Of a stretch of DNA of 38,170 bases, positions 6,256-18,085 are shown piece by piece (position 1 is the stretch's first letter; every line of letters begins with the position of its first letter). The notes beneath the pieces were generated by a model, which ran no database searches, was not told the origin of the DNA, and was given only the letters and a program-made list of their open reading frames with translations. The DNA is from Lachnospiraceae bacterium (GTDB taxonomy: Bacteria; Bacillota; Clostridia; Lachnospirales; Lachnospiraceae): positions 1-38,170 of the forward strand of contig JAFUPV010000047.1 of assembly GCA_017472605.1 (NCBI GenBank). Direction: 5' to 3'. The translations under genes and the position numbers were made by a program.

Positions 6256-6440
6256 TCATGAATTTGATGAACAGAGCCGGCAGGATTACTACAGTCCCGC
6301 CGGCTTTCCTGAATTTTCGCGAGCAGCGAGCCGGGCGAGGGCGCTTGCGCACTTATCCGGCGAGCGCCGTGATAGCGAGAGCAAGTCGCGCAGCGTGGTG
6401 CTCTCGTCCACGCGAGCAGCGATCTGGCGAAACGTGTGAA
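6256..6440. repeat. GC-rich intergenic stretch with direct and inverted repeats
   Basis: The 12-mer CGCGAGCAGCGA occurs at 6318-6329 and again at 6411-6422. Between them CGAGAGCA (6376-6383) can pair with TGCTCTCG (6399-6406). The stretch is clearly richer in CG and GCG words than flanking DNA. No gene or T-tail is seen. It could be a decayed small repeat or a structured leader. Confidence 0.45.
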
Positions 6441-6447
6441 AAAAGTT

Positions 6448-6482
6448 TGTAAGATTCCCGGCAAAAACCGTACTGAATAGGT
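6448..6482 (+). promoter_or_regulatory. Candidate ECF-type autoregulated promoter
   Basis: TGTAAG (6448-6453) and, 15 bases on, CGTACTGAATAG (6469-6480). The TGTAA-type -35 with a CGTA-type -10 resembles promoters read by ECF sigma factors and sits about 65 bases ahead of the sigma gene, as expected for self-regulation. No sigma-A promoter is obvious here. Confidence 0.45.
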
Positions 6483-6546
6483 AAGAACAGAAAATCGGCA
6501 CAGTCTCTCCGACAGGGTGCTGACTGCGATACAAGGGGGTGCAGAG

Positions 6547-7098
6547 ATGGATGACAGCGGAATCATTGAACTGTTTTTTAACCGGTCAGAACAGGCAATC
6601 GAAGAGCTTTCACAGAAATACGGCAGACTTCTGCAGAAACTGGCGGGAAATATCCTGGGAAACCGCCGGGATGTGGAGGAGTGCATCAATGATACCTATT
6701 TTGGAATATGGAATCAGATTCCGCCAAAGCGTCCGGATAATCTTTCTGCCTATGCGTGCCGGATCGCAAGAAACCAGGCGCTGAAGCGGTATGAGGCCAA
6801 TACTGCTTTTAAGCGGAACAGCCAATATGAAATCGCGTTTGAAGAACTGGAAGATTGCCTGGCCGCAGGAAGTGATCCGGCGGCAGAATGCGAGGGCAGA
6901 GAGCTGACCCGCCTGATTGAAGCCTTTCTTGACACGCTGAAAAAGGAAGACCGTATTCTGTTTGTGCGCAGATACTGGTTTGCCGACTCTGTTCTGGAGC
7001 TGAGTGAGCGGATGGGGCTGACACCGGACAACACGTCGGTGCGCCTGTCCAGAATTCGAAGCCGGCTGCGAATTTATCTGGAAAGGAGCGGTTATTGA
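6547..7098 (+). CDS. ECF-type RNA polymerase sigma factor
   Basis: This encodes 183 residues from ATG 6547, with AAGGGGGT 6 bases upstream. Region 2 lies at about residues 10-80 (NRRDVEECINDTYFGIWNQIP, then LSAYACRIARNQALKRYE) and region 4 at about 125-178 (FLDTLKKEDRILFVRRYWF, then LGLTPDNTSVRLSRIRSRLRIYL type helix-turn-helix). It redirects RNA polymerase to a small set of promoters. The stop codon overlaps the ATG of the next gene (TGATG at 7096-7100), so the two are translationally coupled. The downstream membrane protein starts like the anti-sigma partner usual for this group. The inducing signal is unknown, but the partner's serpin domain points to protease stress outside the cell, which is inference. 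Confidence 0.93.
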   Translation: MDDSGIIELFFNRSEQAIEELSQKYGRLLQKLAGNILGNRRDVEECINDTYFGIWNQIPPKRPDNLSAYACRIARNQALKRYEANTAFKRNSQYEIAFEELEDCLAAGSDPAAECEGRELTRLIEAFLDTLKKEDRILFVRRYWFADSVLELSERMGLTPDNTSVRLSRIRSRLRIYLERSGY

Positions 7099-10000
7099 TG
7101 GATACAAAGAAATGGATGGAAGCGTTTTCCGAGATTGATGATGCCTATTTAAAGGAAGCAATGTCTGCCGCAAAGAAAAAGAAAAAGCGGAGATTGACCA
7201 ACCGTGTCATGCAGTGCGCAGCGGTGGCGGCATGTGTACTGATTCTGGCTGCGGCAATGGCAGGCGGTGTGATTCGACCTCTGAACGGCGGTTCGGGAAG
7301 CCAGGGACAGCAGATGAGCGAAGGGGCTTTGAAAGACACGGACATCAAAGAGACAGATATAAGTTTCGAACGCGGAGAAGGCGGTCAGGGAGAAGGCGGC
7401 CAGGGGGAAGATGGCAGCGGAGAAGGTGGCCGGGGCGGCAGCATAGAAGGCGGCAGCGGACAAGAGGGTTCGGCTGCCGTGGGGCAGCATACAGAAGCAG
7501 ATGAGATGGAACCGGATTCTTCCGCCGGAGCAGAGCAGGAGGCACAGCTGATTTTTGAAGAAGACGATGAGGGCATGACAGAGGCGGATCTTGCGCTGCC
7601 CGACGGTTATTTCTTTTATGAAATGACAGAAGAGGACATTGCCGGAATCTGGGGACAGGAAACCCTGTACTGGGAAGGAATGGATGTCATGAAATCCTAT
7701 GATCTTTCCGGCAGCATCACCTATGACGGAACGGGAACCATATGGATTGCAGCGATTTACGGGTACGAAAAGGGCGCACATCCGGAACTGGAAACCGCCC
7801 TGTTTACCATTGAACTTTCACCGGATCGGCTGCCTCCGCAGTGTACGGTGTATGTGGGGCCGGAGAACCGTACCTGTCAGGTATGGGGAACTGATGTCAG
7901 GGCAACATACCGGAACAATGGAGACAGGATCTGGTACACAGTGGAATTCCTGGGCGGACATGAAAATACGGAAGAGCAGGTTGGTGTTCATGTGGAATGC
8001 CGCAGTGAGAAGGATCAGAAGGAGGAACTGGAATCTCTTCTGAACTGCCTGGTATCCCAGTCGCTGCGCCCGGATGGCTGTCTGCAGTTGAGTCAACTGA
8101 AGACAGATGAGGTGCCGGAGTGGAGAAGTGAGAGACTGGACGAAAGTCAGGTTATGGATGAAACAGAATTTCTTGCCTGGTTCCCAGATGAGCTGCCGGG
8201 CGAATTCGGATTTGACAAGGCATTCCGCGAACTGGGACAGGACAGAAACTATCTGACCATTGAGTACCGGACGAAGATTGCAAACGGTCAGGCGGCGGGA
8301 AGTGATTACATCGACTGGACAATTCACATGACAAAGAATTCGCAGAATTCGGAGTCAGAAACCGCTTACCGCTTTGAAAATCTGACACTGGGGCTGCTGG
8401 AATCGCTGGCGGATGAATCCCGGGAAGCCGGGCAGAAGCGTCCATATCTGAATCTGCGGATTCGATATCAGGAAGATGTATTTGTAAACGTATCCGGTTA
8501 TCTGACAGCGGAGGAACTGTGGATGATGCTTCCGCAGACTGCCAGTGAGCTGACCTTCCTGTCGGCACTGCCGGAAGTCCGTTTTCAGACAGACAACAGT
8601 CTTTTTGAGGACATCAATGGATTCACGGTTCCCAACGAGTGGAGCACCCGTGAACTGACAGAGGAAGAAATTGCGTCAATTTGGGGGCAGAAGGAGCTTT
8701 GCTGGGAAGGCTGGAAGCCAGCAGAGGAATATGTTCTGACCGGAACGGCATCCTATGATAAAACGGGCGCGGTTTGCCTTACCGAGATTAATGGATATGA
8801 TGACAACGCTGCGGAGAATAAGCAGTGCTTTACCATCTATGTGGCAGACGGCCAGGTGTTTGGTGAAAGCCGGTTTGCGGAAGCAGGAAATGGACTGGAT
8901 TCTGTCTGGGGAACGGAAGTTGCCAGTACACGGGGAACATCAAGCTGGGCAAAGGAGGACAGAACATGGGCGCTGGCAGAGTATCAGACGATGTTTGTCC
9001 GGGACGGAGAGGAACCGGTTGGCATCTATACCATTGCGTGGTCAAAAGAAGATTCGGCTCATGAGATGGAAGCGATTCTTACAAGGATGATTTCACAGTC
9101 ACTGCGCCCGGACGGTGTGCTGCAGCTGAGTCAGCTGATCGGTGATCCGGGGGAACAATCAGGGATGGAACCGGCGACAGTACCGGGCGGACAGTTGGAA
9201 CCGACATCGGCCTCAGATCAGTGGACAGCTCCAACGGTATCGTCAGCTGCCTTGCAATCAATGGGAGCAGAAGTACCACAGCAGAAAATTACCGACTTTG
9301 CGATTCGTCTGCTTCAGACCAGTCTCAGTACCGATGAGACCGGTGAGAATGAAAATATCCTTCTTTCCCCCCTGTCCGTCCTGGAAGCACTGGCGATGAC
9401 GGCGAACGGTGCCGGAGGACAGACGCTGGAGCAGATGGAATTCATGTTTGGTTTGGATGTGGAGCAGCTGAATGAGTATCTGCTGACTTATCGGACCAAT
9501 CTGGAACATACAGAATCTGCCAGCCTCAATCTGGCAAACGGAATCTGGATGAGGGATGAGCCGGATTTTGTGGTGCAGGCGCAGTTTCAGGATGATATGG
9601 CATACTGGTATGACGCGGAGCTTCGCACAGCGCCTTTTGACGACTCAACCGTGCAGGAGATCAATGAATGGGTCCGTTTGAAAACAAAGAACCGGATTCC
9701 GTCTCTGCTGGATGAAATCCGGGACGAGGCAAAACTGTTTCTGATCAATGCGGTCGCGTTTGACGGAACCTGGGAAGTTGTTTATGAAGAACATCAGATA
9801 CAGGACGGTATTTTTACGTCAGCAGACGGTGAGGAGCAGAAGACGGAAATGATGCATTCCACAGAGATGGCATATCTGGAGGATCCGGGAATTGCCAGCG
9901 GATTCATCAAGTATTATGAAGGCAGAAACTATGCATTTGCGGCATTGCTTCCAGAGGAAGGAATCCGTGTGGAAGAATATGCAGAACTGCTGAGCGGTGA

Positions 10001-10391
10001 ACGGCTGCAGACGATTCTGTCTAATCGTCTGGATGTAATGACGGAGGTGACAATGCCGAAATTTACCAGTGAATATCAGACGAAAATGAAGGAAATTCTT
10101 CAGGATATGGGGATGATCCATGCATTTGATCCGGAAACGGCAGATTTCACTGGAATCGCTACACGGAATGGGGAAAGTCTCTATATTAATGAAATCATTC
10201 ACAAAACGTATCTGGGCGTAAATGAGAAAGGAACCGAAGCCGGAGCGGTAACTGCGGTTATCATGGAGGGCGCAGGCCTGCTGCCAGAGGAAGTCAGAGA
10301 AATTTCTCTGGATCGGCCGTTCCTTTACATGATTATTGACTGTGAACAGCAGATACCGGTCTTTCTGGGCGTTGTGCAGTCCGTGAAGTAA
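7098..10391 (+). CDS. Membrane-anchored protein with anti-sigma-like head, duplicated module and C-terminal serpin
   Basis: 1097 residues from ATG 7098 (TTG 7095 is an alternative; AAAGGAG at 7082-7088). In order: a short cytosolic head (1-36) with a Lys run, resembling the start of putative anti-sigma partners of ECF factors; one membrane segment (about 37-59); a Gly/Glu/Ser-rich linker (about 62-135); a module at about 168-340; an unrelated segment at about 345-505; a second copy of the module at about 511-695, both with (I/S)IWGQ and SQSLRPDG.LQLSQL; and a full serpin domain (about 728-1097). The serpin has the NILLSPLSVLEAL helix, the TMPKF strand and a reactive-loop hinge EKGTEAGAVTAV (about 1042-1053) with small residues, as in inhibitory serpins. 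The P1 residue is uncertain. It probably inhibits proteases at the cell surface and may signal to the sigma factor. Confidence 0.88.
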   Translation: MDTKKWMEAFSEIDDAYLKEAMSAAKKKKKRRLTNRVMQCAAVAACVLILAAAMAGGVIRPLNGGSGSQGQQMSEGALKDTDIKETDISFERGEGGQGEGGQGEDGSGEGGRGGSIEGGSGQEGSAAVGQHTEADEMEPDSSAGAEQEAQLIFEEDDEGMTEADLALPDGYFFYEMTEEDIAGIWGQETLYWEGMDVMKSYDLSGSITYDGTGTIWIAAIYGYEKGAHPELETALFTIELSPDRLPPQCTVYVGPENRTCQVWGTDVRATYRNNGDRIWYTVEFLGGHENTEEQVGVHVECRSEKDQKEELESLLNCLVSQSLRPDGCLQLSQLKTDEVPEWRSERLDESQVMDETEFLAWFPDELPGEFGFDKAFRELGQDRNYLTIEYRTKIANGQAAGSDYIDWTIHMTKNSQNSESETAYRFENLTLGLLESLADESREAGQKRPYLNLRIRYQEDVFVNVSGYLTAEELWMMLPQTASELTFLSALPEVRFQTDNSLFEDINGFTVPNEWSTRELTEEEIASIWGQKELCWEGWKPAEEYVLTGTASYDKTGAVCLTEINGYDDNAAENKQCFTIYVADGQVFGESRFAEAGNGLDSVWGTEVASTRGTSSWAKEDRTWALAEYQTMFVRDGEEPVGIYTIAWSKEDSAHEMEAILTRMISQSLRPDGVLQLSQLIGDPGEQSGMEPATVPGGQLEPTSASDQWTAPTVSSAALQSMGAEVPQQKITDFAIRLLQTSLSTDETGENENILLSPLSVLEALAMTANGAGGQTLEQMEFMFGLDVEQLNEYLLTYRTNLEHTESASLNLANGIWMRDEPDFVVQAQFQDDMAYWYDAELRTAPFDDSTVQEINEWVRLKTKNRIPSLLDEIRDEAKLFLINAVAFDGTWEVVYEEHQIQDGIFTSADGEEQKTEMMHSTEMAYLEDPGIASGFIKYYEGRNYAFAALLPEEGIRVEEYAELLSGERLQTILSNRLDVMTEVTMPKFTSEYQTKMKEILQDMGMIHAFDPETADFTGIATRNGESLYINEIIHKTYLGVNEKGTEAGAVTAVIMEGAGLLPEEVREISLDRPFLYMIIDCEQQIPVFLGVVQSVK

Positions 10392-10947: not shown

Positions 10948-12336
10948 ATGAAGAAAAGATTATTTGGCGCAGTGATGTCCGCTGCAATGGTAAGCAGCTT
11001 CATGTTCGGTGCTACCGCTTTTGCTGAGGAAGCTACTTCCGAGGCTGCAACTGAGGAAGTTGTAGAGGCTACCGTTCCTGCTGACGTTGTTACTGGTGAC
11101 GCTTCCAGTGAGGATGCTTTCGTTGTTTGGGGATGGAACGATGATATCAAGAAGATTCTTGATGGCCCGTTCGCAGAGGCTTATCCGGATCTGTACGAGA
11201 GAATCGTATTCGTAAACACCGGCGGTTCTGACTACTATCAGAGCAAGCTGGATCCGGTTCTGGATGATCCGTCCAACGAGCTGTACCCGGATATGATGGG
11301 TCTTGAGGTTGACTACGTTCAGAAGTACGTTAACAACGCTGACTGGATCGCAGCAGTTGCTGATCTGGGAATCACAGAGGAAGACATGGCTAGCATGTAT
11401 CAGTACAACATCGACCTTGGTTCTGACTGGGACGGCAATGTAAGAGCAATGTTCTGGCAGGCAACACCAGGATGCATCCAGGTTCGTGCTGACCTTGCTG
11501 AGAAGTACCTTGGAACAACTGATCCGGCTGAACTGGCTGAGATGTTCTCTTCCTATGAGAAGATCATCGAGACCGCTACCGCTGTTAACGAAGCTTCTGA
11601 AGGAAAGTGCAAGCTGTTCTCCGGTTACGATGAGCTGAAGAGAATGCTCACCAACTCCAGAGAAGTTGGCTTCTACGATGAGAACGATGTAATCACTCTT
11701 GACGAGAACATCGAGCAGTACATGGAGCTTGCTAAGCAGATGTACGATGCTGATCTGACCTACAACACCGCACAGTGGAGCGCAGACTGGACCGCTAACA
11801 TGAACGGTGATGGCATTGAGACCAACGCAGCAATCGCTTACATGGGATGCCCGTGGTTCACATATTGGTGCCTGCAGCCGACATGGCAGGAGAACACCAT
11901 TCTGGTTCCGACACCAGAGCAGTGCTACTGGGGTGGAACAGGTCTGGCAGCTACAGCTAACTGCTCTGACACAGAGATGGCAGCAACCATCATGAAGTTC
12001 ATCACAACTGATGTTGATGGTATGGTAGCAATCAATGCTATGAACTCTGACTTCGTAAACAACACCGAGGCTCTTTCCAAGATCGTTGAGAGCGGCGCTT
12101 CCGCAGATGGAAACGGATATCTGTACGCTGACGCTGGCCAGAACTTCATCGAGTTCTTCCTGCCGCTGGCTGATGGTATCGATGCTTCTACCGTAACCGC
12201 AGAGGATCAGCAGATTCTGTCCATGCTGGATACTCAGGTACAGGCATATGTAACTGGCGAGAAGGATCTTGAGACTGCTATCGCTGATCTGAAGGCTGCT
12301 ATTCACGACACCTTTGATTATCTGACTGTTGAGTAA
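10948..12336 (+). CDS. Sugar ABC importer, extracellular solute-binding protein (family 1)
   Basis: 462 residues, ATG 10948 with AAGGAGG 8 bases upstream. It has a signal peptide (MKKRLFGAVMSAAMVSSFMFG) with likely cleavage after ATAFA and no lipobox Cys, which is unusual for a Gram-positive binding protein that must stay near the cell. An acidic Glu/Ala/Val/Thr stretch follows, then the two-lobed fold from about residue 50 (AFVVWGWNDDIKKIL). The body shows the usual long alpha/beta pattern with aromatic residues that may stack on sugar (YMGCPWFTYWCLQP). Codon choice differs from most neighbours and resembles pflB (GCT, GTT, AAC and GAC preferred), pointing to high expression. Two permease genes follow. 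The sugar is unknown. Confidence 0.92.
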   Translation: MKKRLFGAVMSAAMVSSFMFGATAFAEEATSEAATEEVVEATVPADVVTGDASSEDAFVVWGWNDDIKKILDGPFAEAYPDLYERIVFVNTGGSDYYQSKLDPVLDDPSNELYPDMMGLEVDYVQKYVNNADWIAAVADLGITEEDMASMYQYNIDLGSDWDGNVRAMFWQATPGCIQVRADLAEKYLGTTDPAELAEMFSSYEKIIETATAVNEASEGKCKLFSGYDELKRMLTNSREVGFYDENDVITLDENIEQYMELAKQMYDADLTYNTAQWSADWTANMNGDGIETNAAIAYMGCPWFTYWCLQPTWQENTILVPTPEQCYWGGTGLAATANCSDTEMAATIMKFITTDVDGMVAINAMNSDFVNNTEALSKIVESGASADGNGYLYADAGQNFIEFFLPLADGIDASTVTAEDQQILSMLDTQVQAYVTGEKDLETAIADLKAAIHDTFDYLTVE

Positions 12337-12399
12337 TTGACAAGATAACAATATAAGTAGCTGTTGGAAGATAATTTCACAGTAAACGAGTGAGAAAAG

Positions 12400-12437
12400 A
12401 TGCTGCTTCTTCCGCTTGCGGGAGGAGCGGCATTTTT
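12400..12437 (+). terminator. Hairpin with T-tail between binding protein and permeases
   Basis: TGCTGCTTCTTCCG pairs with CGGGAGGAGCGGCA using three G-U pairs around a very short loop, followed by ATTTTTG. In ABC operons such a hairpin usually lets the binding protein be made in excess over the permeases, by partial termination or by protecting the upstream mRNA. Confidence 0.75.
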
Positions 12438-12520
12438 GACCATAAGAGTCTGATCGCAGATCAGTCGGCAATTACAAGAGGCGAGATTTGTTTCGCTTTC
12501 AGCGCATCAGGGAGGGACCA

Positions 12521-13495
12521 ATGGCAACAAAAAAGAGAAGAAAGTCGGTAGAGCGCGGCAAATACGGTTACCTGTTTATTGCACCGTTTTTTATTACATA
12601 TCTGCTGTTTCAGCTCTGGCCGTTAATCAACACATTTTACTACAGCACATTATCTTACTATAAGAGAAATGGACGTGAAATCATCAGCTTCGCTGGTCTG
12701 GAAAACTTTGCAGATATTTTGGGTCTGACAGCCGGCGAGCGTCCATACGTTTTGATTTATCTGAAGAATACTCTGATCATGTGGGGTATGAACTTTATTC
12801 CGCAGATTCTTGTATCTCTGTTAATGGCAGCATGGCTGACGAATAACAAGGTAAAGATCAGGGGAACCGGTGCAATTAAAGTCATTATCTATCTGCCGAG
12901 CATCATCACGGCAGCTTCCGTATCCGTATTGTTCAAAGCCATGTTCTCACAATATGGTCCGATTACTAAGACATTGCGTGATATTGGAATTATCAGTGAA
13001 AACTTCGATTTCATGGCCAGTGTCATGGGTACGCGTGGTCTGATATCGTTTATCCTGTTCTGGATGTGGTTTGGAAATACGTCGCTTATGCTGATATCCG
13101 GTGTCATGGGTATTGACCCGGGCCTGTTTGAAGCCGCCGATATCGATGGTGCAAATGGTAAAAAACAGTTTTTCTACATCACATTGCCTCTGCTTAAGCC
13201 AATTTTGCTTTATACGCTTGTAACGTCAGCAATTGGTGGTCTGCAGATGTATGACATTCCGGCACTGTTTAATGTAACAGAGACAAATCTGCAGGGATTA
13301 CCGAATGATACGTCGACGACAATGGCAATGTATATCATGCGATTGTACAACTCGAATGTCGGTAAAGCGGCAACTGTTTCTGTATTCCTGTTTGCAGTAA
13401 CATTGGCAGTGAGTCTGGTGCTGTTTGTGAGCATGGGAGATAAAGAAGCAAAGAAATTAAAGAAGGCAGAAAGGAGACGCAGAAATGAAAAATAA
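12521..13495 (+). CDS. Sugar ABC importer permease (MalF/UgpA type)
   Basis: This encodes 324 residues from ATG 12521, with GGGAGGG just upstream; an in-frame TTG at 12488 is less likely. A basic N-terminal tail (TKKRRKSVERGKYGYLF) leads into about six membrane segments. The EAA loop that docks the ATPase is EAADIDGANGKKQFFYITLPLLKP. With the next gene it forms the membrane channel of a carbohydrate importer of the CUT1 class. It overlaps the second permease by 11 bases, indicating tight coupling. No ATPase gene follows; as in many Firmicutes a shared MsmK-type ATPase elsewhere probably serves it. Confidence 0.93.
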   Translation: MATKKRRKSVERGKYGYLFIAPFFITYLLFQLWPLINTFYYSTLSYYKRNGREIISFAGLENFADILGLTAGERPYVLIYLKNTLIMWGMNFIPQILVSLLMAAWLTNNKVKIRGTGAIKVIIYLPSIITAASVSVLFKAMFSQYGPITKTLRDIGIISENFDFMASVMGTRGLISFILFWMWFGNTSLMLISGVMGIDPGLFEAADIDGANGKKQFFYITLPLLKPILLYTLVTSAIGGLQMYDIPALFNVTETNLQGLPNDTSTTMAMYIMRLYNSNVGKAATVSVFLFAVTLAVSLVLFVSMGDKEAKKLKKAERRRRNEK

Positions 13496-14348
13496 AGACA
13501 GCTACAGCGCATCATTAAGAAGACAGAAGATTCTGCGCGGCCTGGTTTGTGCGTTCTTCTGTGCTTTGAGCCTTGGTCCGTTCCTGCTTCTGGCAGTGAA
13601 TGCAACCAGAGATTCCAAGGCAATTCAGGCTGGAATTACTCTGATTCCGTCTACCCATCTTCTGGAAAACTGGAAAAATCTGCTGATTAAGCAGAATGGT
13701 ATGCAGATTACTCTGCAGCGCGCGGCACTCAACTCTTTAATGATTACCGTGCCGGGAACCTTCTGTTCCGTGTATTTCTCATCTATGACTGCTTACGGTG
13801 TTCATGTTTACAATTTTAAGCTGAAGAAACTGGCATGGGCATTTATTATGGCGGTTATGATGGTGCCGAGCCAGATTACAATCATCGGTTTCTACCGTTT
13901 TATGCTGGATCTGGATCTGGTTGATACTTACATTCCGCTGATCATTCCGGCAATTGCTTCTCCAACCGTTGTTTTCTTCATGAAACAGTACATGGAAAGT
14001 ACGCTGTCGATTGAGATTATTGAGGCATCGCGAATTGACGGTGCAGGTGAATTCCATACCTTTAACCGCATTGTGCTGCCGATTCTGAAGCCGGCTGTTG
14101 CAACGCAGGCAATTTTCCAGTTCATCGCACAGTGGAATAACCTGTTCACTCCGTCTATCATGCTGACGACCGACAGCAAAAAGACGCTTCCAATGTTTGT
14201 ACAGCTGCTTACATCCAATCAGTTCCGTACGGACTATGGTGTTGTTTATGTCAGCCTGTTTGTAACAATCATTCCGCTTGTTGTTGCATACCTGATCCTC
14301 TCCAAGTACATCGTTGCCGGTGTCGCTCTTGGCGGTGTAAAGGGTTAA
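13485..14348 (+). CDS. Sugar ABC importer permease (MalG/UgpE type)
   Basis: 287 residues, ATG 13485, with GAAAGGAG upstream inside the previous gene. It has six predicted membrane segments and the EAA loop EASRIDGAGEFHTFNRIVLPILKP. It is the second half of the CUT1-class channel. The C-terminus (SKYIVAGVALGGVKG) is typical of MalG-like permeases, many of which end in GAVKG or similar. The operon ends here with a strong terminator at 14389, so the transport unit is binding protein plus two permeases without glycosidase or ATPase. Confidence 0.93.
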   Translation: MKNKDSYSASLRRQKILRGLVCAFFCALSLGPFLLLAVNATRDSKAIQAGITLIPSTHLLENWKNLLIKQNGMQITLQRAALNSLMITVPGTFCSVYFSSMTAYGVHVYNFKLKKLAWAFIMAVMMVPSQITIIGFYRFMLDLDLVDTYIPLIIPAIASPTVVFFMKQYMESTLSIEIIEASRIDGAGEFHTFNRIVLPILKPAVATQAIFQFIAQWNNLFTPSIMLTTDSKKTLPMFVQLLTSNQFRTDYGVVYVSLFVTIIPLVVAYLILSKYIVAGVALGGVKG

Positions 14349-14388
14349 TGGCCGGAAAAAACACTTGAAAATGAAATCGATAACCGTT

Positions 14389-14440
14389 ACAGCCGCGAAA
14401 GCAGACAGGATTCTGCTTTCGCGGCTGTTGTGCTGTTTCA
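14389..14440 (+). terminator. Terminator of the sugar ABC operon
   Basis: A perfect 17-bp stem, ACAGCCGCGAAAGCAGA (14389-14405) with TCTGCTTTCGCGGCTGT (14412-14428), around a 6-base loop. The tail TGTGCTGTTT is only moderately T-rich. Confidence 0.85.
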
Positions 14441-14441
14441 A

Positions 14442-14475
14442 ATCCGGGCAGGCAGACCGGTGACCTGCGCGGGCA
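14442..14475 (+). repeat. Dispersed hairpin element, degenerate copy E
   Basis: It aligns without gaps to copy A from ATCC onward: 11 bases, then the identical loop CCGGTGA (14457-14463). The stem is degraded (5 of 8 pairs), with an alternative GCAGG/CCTGC pairing. It lies just behind a terminator, like copies A and B. Confidence 0.45.
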
Positions 14476-14741
14476 GATATGCCATGCATCCGGGAAGGGA
14501 CGGAGGGGAAGCAGCTGCGAAAGGGAAGACCGGCTGCGGATAAATACAATTTCATACAACTTAAAAATGATAATTATTCCTGAAATCTGGAAAGGCAACG
14601 TAATACTTTAAAACAATAAACAAAACCATATATTTAAAAATGCGATTCTGTTTCGAAATGGATTGATTAAAAACAGGAACGAATCCTGATTTTTAAAAAC
14701 GCTTTGTATTTAAAAAAGAACAAAAACGGTCAGATAAGCAC

Positions 14742-14770
14742 TTGTAAAGACGGATTCGATATGTTATTAT
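14742..14770 (+). promoter_or_regulatory. Promoter of pflB
   Basis: TTGTAA (14742-14747), a 17-base spacer, and TATTAT (14765-14770). The leader is about 60 bases with TAAGGAGG ahead of the ATG. Confidence 0.7.
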
Positions 14771-14836
14771 TAAGTCAGACCTGAGGTGGAGTATCAAGAA
14801 CCGCTTCAGATAGAATATAAGGAGGAAAAAGAAATT

Positions 14837-17080
14837 ATGGCACAGTTTGAAGCATGGGCTGGCTTTAAGGGCAGAGCCTGGAAAGAAGAAGTAAACACCC
14901 GCGATTTCATTCAGAGCAACTATACTCCATATGATGGAGATGCATCCTTCCTTGCAGACGCTACCGAGGCAACTGATAAGCTTTGGGGCAAGCTGCAGGA
15001 GCTGAACAAAGAGGCAAGAGCAAAGGGCGGCGTGCTGGATATGGATACCGATATCGTTTCCACTATCACCTCCCACGGACCGGGATATCTTGATAAGGAT
15101 CTGGAGCAGATCGTTGGTCTTCAGACCGATAAGCCTCTGAAGAGAGCATTCATGCCGTTCGGCGGAATCAACATGGCTGAGCAGTCCTGTCAGATGTACG
15201 GCTACGAGCCGAGCCCGGAGCTGCACAAGATCTTCACTGACTACCACAAGACCCACAACCAGGGCGTATTCGATGCTTACACACCAGAGATTCGTGCTGC
15301 ACGTAAGTACAAGATCATCACCGGTCTTCCGGATACCTATGGCCGCGGCCGTATCGTAGGCGACTATCGTCGTATCGCTCTGTACGGTATCGACTTCCTG
15401 GTAGCTGAGAAGAAGAAGGATCTGGCTAACTGCGGTAACGGCGCAATGTATGATGAGATCATCCGTCAGAGAGAAGAGCTGGCTGACCAGATCAAGGCTC
15501 TGAACGCAATGAAGGTTATGGCTGCAAGCTATGGCTACGACATCTCCAAGCCGGCTACCAACGCAAAAGAGTGTGTACAGTGGCTGTACTTCGGATATCT
15601 GGCAGCAATCAAGACTCAGAACGGTGCTGCAATGTCCGTTGGCCGTGTATCTACCTTCATCGATATCTACATGCAGAGAGACCTTGAGAACGGCGTAATC
15701 ACCGAGACCGAGGCTCAGGAGATCATCGACCACTTCGTAATGAAGCTGCGTATGGTTAAGTTCGCTCGTATCCAGTCCTACAATGAGCTGTTCTCCGGCG
15801 ACCCGGTATGGGCAACTCTGGCAATCGGCGGTCTTGGTGTAGACGGACGTTCCATGGTAACTAAGAACGACTACCGTATCCTGCACACCCTTGAGACCAT
15901 GGGACCGGCTCCGGAACCGAACATGACCGTTCTGTATTCCAAGAGACTTCCGAAGACCTTCCGTGACTACACCTCCAAGGTTTCCATCGACACATCTTCC
16001 ATCCAGTATGAGAACGATGATGTAATGCGTGTAATCTGGGGCGATGACTATGCAATCTGCTGCTGCGTATCCGCAACTCAGACCGGTAAGGAAATGCAGT
16101 TCTTCGGCGCTCGTGCAAACCTTGCTAAGTGTCTTCTGTACGCTATCAACGGCGGTATTGACGAGAAGGCAAAGGTACAGGTTGCTCCGGCAACTCAGCC
16201 GATCACTTCCGAGTACCTGGACTACGATGAGGTTATGAAGAAGTATGACACCGCTATGGAGTGGCTGGCAGGTCTGTATGTAAATACTCTGAACCTGATC
16301 CACTACATGCATGATAAGTACTACTATGAGGCAGCTGAGATGGCTCTGATCGATACCGATGTACGTCGTACATTCGCTACCGGTATCGCAGGATTCTCTC
16401 ACACCGTTGACTCCCTGGCTGCTATCAAGTATGCAAAGGTTAAGACCGTTCGTGATGAGAGCGGACTGGTTGTTGATTACGAGATCGAGGGAGACTTCCC
16501 GCGTTATGGTAACGACGATGACCGCGCAGATGAGATCGCTGTATGGCTTCTGAAGGAGTTCGTAAACAAGATCAAGAAGCATCACACCTATCGTAACTCT
16601 GAGCCGACCACCTCTATCCTGACCATTACTTCCAACGTTGTATATGGTAAGGCTACTGGTGCTCTTCCGGATGGACGTCCGGCTGGCGAGCCTCTGTCTC
16701 CTGGTGCAAACCCGTCCTACGGTGCAGAGAAGAATGGTCTGCTTGCATCCCTGAACTCCGTTGCTAAGCTTCCTTATGAGTATGCTCTGGATGGTATTTC
16801 CAACACCCAGACCATCAACCCGGGCGCACTGGGCAACAACGAGGAAGAGCGTGTTGCAAACCTGGTTAACACCATGGACGGATATTTCGAGCGTGGAGCT
16901 CATCACCTGAACGTTAACGTATTCGGTAAGGAGAAGCTGATCGATGCGATGGAGCATCCGGAGAAGCCAGAGTACGCAAACTTCACCATCCGTGTATCCG
17001 GTTATGCAGTTAAGTTCATCGACCTGAACAAGGAGCAGCAGATGGATGTTATCAAGAGAACCTGCCACGAGTCTCTGTAA
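14837..17080 (+). CDS. pflB: Pyruvate formate-lyase (formate C-acetyltransferase)
   Basis: 747 residues from ATG 14837 (GGAGGA upstream; GTG 14786 in frame is rejected). It converts pyruvate and CoA to acetyl-CoA and formate in the cytoplasm under anoxia. The catalytic pair is Cys 409-Cys 410 in [20 protein letters not shown], matching the Cys 418-419 pair of the E. coli enzyme; a third Cys (408) precedes it. The radical is carried by Gly 722 in [11 protein letters not shown] near the C-terminus. Length and motifs match true PflB rather than diol dehydratases or other glycyl radical enzymes. Codon use is strongly biased, as in very highly expressed genes. The activase follows after a terminator and two hairpin elements. 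Confidence 0.98.
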
Positions 17081-17125
17081 TGGATTCTTCAAACAGATTC
17101 AACGGATAAATAATTAAGCAACAAC

Positions 17126-17160
17126 GGCAGGTGTGGTAAAACACACCTGCCTGTTTTGTT
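17126..17160 (+). terminator. Terminator after pflB
   Basis: GGCAGGTGTG (17126-17135), loop GTAAAA, CACACCTGCC (17142-17151), then TGTTTTGTTT. It would let pflB be made in excess over its activase. Confidence 0.9.
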
Positions 17161-17161
17161 T

Positions 17162-17204
17162 ATGCATCCAGGCGAACGTGCCAGTGACACGTTCGGTCGG
17201 ATTG
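17162..17204 (+). repeat. Dispersed hairpin element, copy B
   Basis: CGAACGTG (17173-17180), loop CCAGTGA, CACGTTCG (17188-17195), with the same CATCCAGG lead-in and TCGGATT follow-on as copy A. It sits directly behind the pflB terminator. Homology to copy A begins already in the CCTGCCTGTTT arm and tail of the two terminators. Confidence 0.8.
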
Positions 17205-17208
17205 TTAT

Positions 17209-17251
17209 ACGTCCAGACGAACCTGCCGTTGACGCGTTTGCCCGTCTGGAT
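17209..17251 (+). repeat. Dispersed hairpin element, copy C
   Basis: Immediately after copy B. CGAACCTG (17218-17225), loop CCGTTGA, CGCGTTTG (17233-17240) gives 7 of 8 pairs including wobbles. An added outer stem pairs TCCAGA (17212-17217) with TCTGGA (17245-17250). Confidence 0.65.
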
Positions 17252-17326
17252 CTGTGTGAGTTGCAATAACAGAAAACGGATATACTGACAATGAGACAGA
17301 CAGGACTGTCTCCAAAGGAGGAAATT

Positions 17327-18085
17327 ATGGTACAGGGAGTGATTCATTCACTGGAGTCCTTCGGTTCCGCAGATGGACCGGGAGTCCGTTACCTTATTTT
17401 TTTAAATGGATGTAAGATGCGCTGCAAATACTGTCATAACCCGGACACCTGGGCGAAAAAGGAAACGCAGCTGCTTACCGCGGATGAGCTGCTTCAGAAA
17501 GCGATGCGCTACAAGACCTACTGGGGTGACAGAGGCGGCATTACTGTCAGCGGCGGAGAACCGCTTCTGCAGATGGAGTTCATGAATGAACTCTTTCAGA
17601 AGGCAAAGAAAGAAAAAATCAACACATGCATCGATACGGCAGGACAGCCGTTTACCAGAGAGGAACCGTTCTTTAGCCAGTTTAATGCTCTGATGGAGAA
17701 TACCGATCTTCTTCTTCTGGACATCAAGCACATTGATTCAGAAAAGCATAAGGCATTGACCGGATGGGGAAATGAGAACATCCTTGACATGGCACGTTAT
17801 CTTTCCGAGATCGGCAAGCCGGTCTGGATTCGTCATGTGCTGGTACCGGGCGTGAACAATGACCGGGAGTCTCTGGAGAAACTGAGTGAGTTCCTGAAGT
17901 CTCTGAAGAATGTGGAACGTCTGGACATCCTTCCCTATCATACACTCGGTGTGTTCAAGTGGAAAGAGCTGGGTCTTACCTATGGTCTGGAAGGTGTGAA
18001 CCCGCCAACAGACGAAGACATGAAACTGGCAAAAGAGATTCTGGATGTGGCATCCTATGATGCCTATGCGAAGCGCGGTTATTGA
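17327..18085 (+). CDS. pflA: Pyruvate formate-lyase activating enzyme (radical SAM)
   Basis: 252 residues from ATG 17327, with AAAGGAGG 5 bases upstream. It makes the glycyl radical on PflB using S-adenosylmethionine and a 4Fe-4S cluster held by Cys 29, 33 and 36 (CKMRCKYC). The family start SFGSADGPGVRYLIFLNGC and the ISGGEPLLQ-like VSGGEPLLQMEF are present, as is the DILPYHTLG region near the C-terminus. There is no extra ferredoxin domain, so it is the short PflA type rather than an activase of a larger glycyl radical enzyme. It lies 246 bases after pflB, separated by a terminator and hairpin copies B and C, so it may be read by readthrough or from a weak promoter of its own. Confidence 0.97.
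   Translation: MVQGVIHSLESFGSADGPGVRYLIFLNGCKMRCKYCHNPDTWAKKETQLLTADELLQKAMRYKTYWGDRGGITVSGGEPLLQMEFMNELFQKAKKEKINTCIDTAGQPFTREEPFFSQFNALMENTDLLLLDIKHIDSEKHKALTGWGNENILDMARYLSEIGKPVWIRHVLVPGVNNDRESLEKLSEFLKSLKNVERLDILPYHTLGVFKWKELGLTYGLEGVNPPTDEDMKLAKEILDVASYDAYAKRGY

Follow-up and report, generated by a model that had tools for sequence, protein, structure and literature searches.

The window analysed here is a 38,170-nucleotide stretch of Lachnospiraceae DNA (contig JAFUPV010000047.1 of assembly GCA_017472605.1), in which the gene for an extracytoplasmic function (ECF) sigma factor overlaps the gene for a membrane protein of 1097 aa that ends in a serpin domain. By analogy with RsiV, the membrane protein may be a short anti-sigma factor for this ECF sigma factor, with a serpin ectodomain that both senses and traps proteases, a reading to which we assign a probability of about 0.5. 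It builds on the gene pair itself, its domain order, its recurrence in related genomes, the repeated fusion of its parts, the general linkage of the cytosolic head to this group of sigma factors and a promoter-like site upstream. The features of the pair are as follows.

6437..6484, forward strand: promoter-like site, with a -35-like TGTAAG at 6448-6453 and a -10-like CGTAC at 6469-6473, the latter 78 nt before the sigma start
6547..7098, forward strand: gene for the ECF sigma factor, 183 aa (Pfam Sigma70_r2 and Sigma70_r4_2; NCBIfam sigma70-ECF at 66.2 bits, cut-off 42.9)
7098..10391, forward strand: gene for the 1097-aa protein, with putative anti-sigma head, membrane helix, linker, duplicated module and serpin
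7098..7217, forward strand: cytosolic head, residues 1 to about 40, with a motif like LxxAIgxIDDxxIxEA and a basic patch; E 2.5e-18 to the head hidden Markov model (HMM), a value that is not independent, as this head is among the 14 seeds
7218..7274, forward strand: membrane segment, about residues 41-59, by Kyte-Doolittle window; AlphaFold2 helix 16-55 at low confidence
7278..7577, forward strand: Gly/Glu/Ser-rich linker, from sequence and from low AlphaFold2 confidence (pLDDT)
7620..8114, forward strand: module copy 1, 38% identical to copy 2 over 168 aa
8130..8636, forward strand: inter-module region of about 169 aa
8634..9158, forward strand: module copy 2, a duplicate of copy 1
9285..10376, forward strand: serpin domain (PF00079, E 1.1e-82 in the protein scan and 6.6e-84 in the genome search)
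10224..10253, forward strand: hinge P17-P8, EKGTEAGAVT, of inhibitory type with small residues

The sigma factor, at about 180 residues, has regions 2 and 4 only, as is typical of ECF sigma factors. The 1097-aa gene follows it directly and shares one base with its stop, which is the placement of an anti-sigma gene, and a conserved cytosolic head in front of a single membrane helix is the layout of a membrane-anchored anti-sigma factor. An earlier note, made from the letters alone, had described a sigma stop overlapping the start of a protein composed of head, membrane segment, Gly-rich linker, duplicated module and serpin, and had called the serpin complete and its hinge inhibitory in type; the coordinates and domain scans bear out this architecture, and the PF00079 match together with the hinge sequence bears out the serpin. 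Serpin is the sole Pfam family above cut-off in the protein, the duplicated modules matching none. The lysozyme-binding ectodomain of RsiV, which we take to be Pfam DUF3298, likewise has no Pfam match in it. The nearest solved relatives of the window serpin by sequence are 2pef, 2vh4 and 2pee (tengpin; E 5.9e-90 to 1.8e-89), and tengpin shares 44% identity with it in a structure alignment. With the reactive loop numbered by the usual spacing, which we assume to apply here, the window hinge is canonical and P4-P4' is predicted to be MEGA followed by GLLP, with Ala at P1.

The head proved to be the usual partner of this sigma group. Its HMM was built from 14 heads of serpin loci in a sample of 397 genomes of the family, and it was evaluated separately on the best 80 loci from a scan of genome contigs with the sigma alignment, loci that were not chosen by head. 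Among these, the next gene bears the head at E<0.01 for 74 of 98 sigma ORFs (open reading frames), with 14 more heads at E<1, nine ORFs without a head and one without a candidate next gene; where several frames started close to the sigma stop, the frame that scored highest for the head was used. By contrast, none of 3023 other same-strand ORFs reached E<0.01 (best E 0.033), which identifies the head as the usual partner and the ectodomains as exchangeable. Moreover, sigma gene and next gene overlap by exactly four bases in 77 of 97 pairs. Head-serpin fusions make up eight of the 97 next genes (L169, L170, L184, L191, L196, L206 and two in L209), a share that is biased upwards because the query came from serpin-linked sigma factors; L209 is, furthermore, nearly the same as L134, an HMM seed. 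In the family sample, a sigma gene lies upstream of each of the 16 distinct serpins that carry this head (12 of them HMM seeds), and the head is carried by none of the 113 unlinked and none of the 13 split-type serpins defined below.

Serpins are present in 140 of the 397 genomes. Upstream DNA was taken for most of the listed serpin matches, at least six listed ones and the unlisted ones being left out, and the resulting 167 ORFs were reduced to 151 distinct ones and then, by dropping a partial copy (the second ORF of L004) and the fragments L045 and L068, to 148 serpin domains from 107 genomes, eight of them with under 1400 nt upstream of the domain. A sigma HMM, based on the two serpin-linked sigma factors of the window's own genome and related ones at these loci, was applied to 3.5 kb of upstream sequence. 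It found a sigma gene on the same strand for 35 of 148 domains and on the opposite strand for two of 148. These 35 comprise 18 fused serpins (head, membrane helix and serpin in one protein), 13 split ones (sigma gene, head-membrane protein and separate serpin) and four further serpins of such operons; the other 113, termed unlinked, include L070, whose upstream sigma gene lies about 2 kb away, and L018, which has one downstream. The fused type occurs in 16 genomes of 15 genera, and fused or split arrangements occur in 28 of 107 genomes. The coupling is real, recurrent and specific. Of the circumstances under which the earlier note would have abandoned the sensor idea, the one concerning homologues, a serpin joined to this head in this strain only, does not apply. 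The idea of a one-off fusion was discarded on the same counts. Head-serpin fusions were also found at seven loci of named records, L209, the near copy of L134, among them.

The two fusions L016 and L062 combine a more distant sigma factor with a different head. More broadly, serpins at L016, L025, L031, L048, L062 and L071 seem to be tied to another, more remote group of putative sigma factors, whose basic head is of a different kind; the arrangement is fused in two of these loci and split in four, and the matches of this group to our own sigma HMM are weak (E about 1e-5 to 1e-11). Outside the family, in a class-level sample, serpins were found in 123 of 291 genomes, and among 74 serpin ORF rows a single one, L296, has a sigma gene next to it; some genes were taken twice or in two pieces among these rows, and 40 regions were picked for long frames. 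Thus, as far as this skewed sample tells, sigma-serpin coupling is concentrated in the window's family. By eye, several serpins from outside the family have signal peptides and long N-terminal dockerin-like or SLH-like parts (L248, L260, L264; L275, L279, L287).

Within the family, the fusion is scattered and repeated. On a quick IQ-TREE phylogeny of the 148 serpin domains (LG+G4, SH-aLRT support only), 13 changes of the fused label are required, at least eight of them forced by starred branches, compared with a mean of 17.2 for shuffled labels, which were as low as observed in two of 500 cases; on the sigma tree the fused state needs 15 changes, at least four of them forced. Such counts cannot tell gain of the fusion from its loss, and the window's row falls in no starred set on either tree. 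The closest serpin by identity is L021 (48%), for which 1.5 kb of upstream sequence showed no sigma gene, the closest by tree path is L042, of split type, and the closest sigma factor by identity is L139 (56%), whose next gene encodes a head bearing a different ectodomain. Since none of these neighbours is fused, the window protein looks like a joining event of its own.

A second such operon is encoded in the same genome, which has four serpins in total. The three besides the window's lie in one apparent operon on contig C11 (L005, 8051-13474), where an ECF sigma gene is accompanied by a 624-aa head-membrane-serpin protein and two serpins with signal-peptide-like starts, the composition expected of a sensor plus its output. 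The reactive loops differ among the serpins of this operon. Five sigma factors of this group are found in the genome, two with head-serpins; two more (L313 and L315) are followed by heads with other ectodomains, and no head gene was found for L314. In one genome of the same genus, all five such sigma genes examined, of seven, precede a head protein lacking a serpin, and two genomes of the genus have one and two serpins, respectively, none of them fused to a head.

Residues P14, P12, P10 and P8 of a serpin hinge face inwards upon loop insertion, and all four are small in 18 of 18 fused serpins. A stricter hinge pattern, which matched three of the 18, was replaced by one allowing other residues at P13, and by this pattern eight of 18 have a canonical hinge. 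By canonical spacing, P1 is Ala in ten, Asn in three, Thr in two, and Glu, Ser or Gly in one each. A lipobox was tried as a mark of free as opposed to fused serpins and rejected: a loose pattern matches 72 of 113 unlinked and also 11 of 18 fused serpins, so that the head alone separates the two classes.

The promoter-like site upstream of the sigma gene scores 27.4 bits with a weight matrix made from 12 sigma upstream regions of other genomes, which were picked after CGTAC had been noticed in several upstream regions, that of the window included. The next best site in the window scores 12.2 bits, and none of 1000 shuffles reached 27.4 bits (highest 7.4). Furthermore, the only exact match in the own genome to a pattern modelled on the window site is that site. 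Judged from sequence, the sigma factor may well read its own operon. A regulon search of the own genome with up to two mismatches gave 13 sites compared with 19 for a reversed control; two sites with one mismatch lie in or antisense to transporter-like genes, and no targets besides the own operon stand out. Just upstream of the promoter, at 6300-6440, lies a GC-rich dispersed repeat that matches 38 places in the own genome, this copy counted, some of them in tandem on C50, about 77 nt apart.

A mechanism that would join these elements can be proposed. In the quiet state the head of about 40 residues would tether the sigma factor to the membrane. A protease cutting the reactive loop would trigger irreversible loop insertion and become trapped, and either this change of the loop or the resulting drag on, or exposure of, the stem might lead to cleavage of stem and membrane helix by a site-1 and then a site-2 protease. 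Degradation of the head would then release the sigma factor, which would transcribe its own operon and so yield more serpin, and a single molecule would serve as shield and as one-shot sensor. An M50 (site-2-type) protease is encoded in the own genome, as it is in 14 of 14 control genomes. That the head binds the sigma factor, that the serpin traps a protease and that the signal crosses the membrane are steps that we infer. A broader formulation, which we put forward tentatively and with less confidence than the reading of the pair itself, is that the serpin is an irreversible, single-use protease receptor whose stressed-to-relaxed change is passed through one helix to an ECF sigma factor, and that the family may have arrived at such receptors several times, in at least two sigma/head lineages, through replacement of a signal peptide by an anti-sigma head or through the opposite exchange.

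Several observations weigh against a protease-reporting anti-sigma factor. In the window protein itself, more than 500 residues of modules without a family could be the sensor, and among three genomes of the genus the fusion is found in the window's own only. The head has no match above cut-off to any known anti-sigma domain; against Pfam CnrY, the window head gives E 0.039 and 14.7 bits, below the cut-off of 25, and is the one head of 42 with even this weak match. No same-strand sigma gene lies in the 3.5 kb examined for 113 of 148 serpins, and that beside the L136 fusion is a mere 72-codon piece. Ten of 18 fused serpins depart from the textbook hinge, P14 being V, C or A and P9 being F or Y, a hinge type also seen in 15 of 113 unlinked serpins. 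A clear promoter motif is present in few serpin-linked sigma upstream regions (27.4 bits in the window, 21.2 in L085 and 11.4 in L005), the other 20 of 23 scoring at most 5.2, so that other members must use other sequences or none. Finally, in the 13 split operons the serpin is separate and another ectodomain sits on the head protein, which means that a serpin can also be an output and speaks against a strict sensor-only interpretation.

These points lend themselves to other explanations, the foremost of which keeps the head as an anti-sigma factor but lets the stem or the duplicated modules read the signal, the serpin being a tethered effector made in amounts set by the sigma factor. It draws on the split operons, on the modules without a family and on the fact that in most relatives the head is joined to ectodomains other than serpins, with examples in the own genome and a sister species. 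Nevertheless, at least six fusions leave no space for a further folded ectodomain: in L016, L052, L062, L085, L113 and L115 the serpin begins 38-46 residues past the membrane helix and should thus be the only folded part outside. Moreover, the window's modules (7620-8114 and 8634-9158) turned up in none of the other genomes among the 397, and hence cannot be a shared sensor. We regard this main rival as rather doubtful in general, though a possibility to be reckoned with for the window protein, given its modules. It is still less probable that the serpin is an anchored shield only, guarding the surface while the head is a leftover or mere anchor and the sigma factor is regulated otherwise. Indeed, an N-terminal hydrophobic segment is present in 107 of 113 unlinked serpins, and by eye many resemble lipoproteins, as anchored or secreted shields would; yet what the fusions keep is the head motif and not just a membrane helix, invariably with a sigma gene at the 16 loci noted above, most of them HMM seeds, and head genes overlap sigma genes across the group. 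Chance neighbourhood or an annotation artefact can practically be dismissed: sigma genes are common (20 Sigma70_r2 matches in the own genome), but the excess of same-strand over opposite-strand sigma genes, which rules out chance neighbourhood, the spread over 15 genera and the second operon in the own genome all speak against it. An anti-sigma factor with a protease-reporting serpin is preferred because the head is conserved, the fusion is scattered and the serpin is the sole folded outer part in some fusions.

Seven flanking proteins were scanned, namely a helix-turn-helix protein, an alpha/beta hydrolase, a melibiase, a GH120-like protein, an ABC permease, a glycyl radical enzyme and one protein without a family; no kinase or response regulator was found among them beside the window serpin gene. 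Downstream, positions 10948-18085 hold a putative catabolic cluster: a solute-binding-like protein without a Pfam match (10948-12336), an ABC permease and a further ORF (13485-14348), a PFL-like glycyl radical enzyme (14786-17080) and a radical SAM protein (17291-18085).

Serpins are known above all for inhibition; one connected to a sigma factor would, if the proposal holds, be a protease receptor consumed in the act of reporting. This could explain how gut and rumen Clostridia, the source of the named relatives, match serpin output to host or rival proteases, and it would place a second anti-sigma factor beside RsiV as one that both reads and blocks the attacking enzyme. Such a protein might also serve as a part for protease-responsive gene circuits, and with so many fused and split operons occurring in nature, the sensor question can be put to a direct test.

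Among known systems, SigI-RsgI of Clostridium thermocellum has a sigma family and a head that differ from the window's. The likeness lies in membrane anti-sigma factors with outer sensor domains, which in RsgI are described as binding polysaccharides (PMC3990059, PMC12484212). CnrY-type (class II) anti-sigma factors, as presented in the parts of PMC7406223 consulted, also place a short cytosolic head before a membrane helix; their motif and ectodomains are unlike those of the window's group. Tengpin, the gut siropins and the cellulosomal serpins belong to the same protein family as the window serpin; the siropins are reported to act on human proteases (PMC5127057) and the cellulosomal serpins on subtilisin-like proteases (PMC12484212), and no joining to a sigma-factor partner is seen in the portions of their descriptions consulted. 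A protease-responsive control of a serpin gene is described for Bifidobacterium breve, where it is exerted through a two-component system and not a sigma factor, and where the serpin is not presented, in the sections consulted, as part of the sensor (PMC8012564). In the excerpts consulted, PMC10059941, PMC3990059 and PMC12484212 treat serpins and anti-sigma factors as separate things, and no paper coupling serpins with ECF sigma or anti-sigma factors was found in the portion of the open-licence literature searched. The closest parallel is SigV-RsiV of Bacillus subtilis, in which, according to the available part of the report, a membrane-anchored ECF anti-sigma factor both senses and inhibits lysozyme through its ectodomain (PMC5014341); that ectodomain is not a serpin, and the window's target would, by analogy, be a protease that it inhibits. 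The parts and the principle are known; their combination and its repeated occurrence appear to be new.

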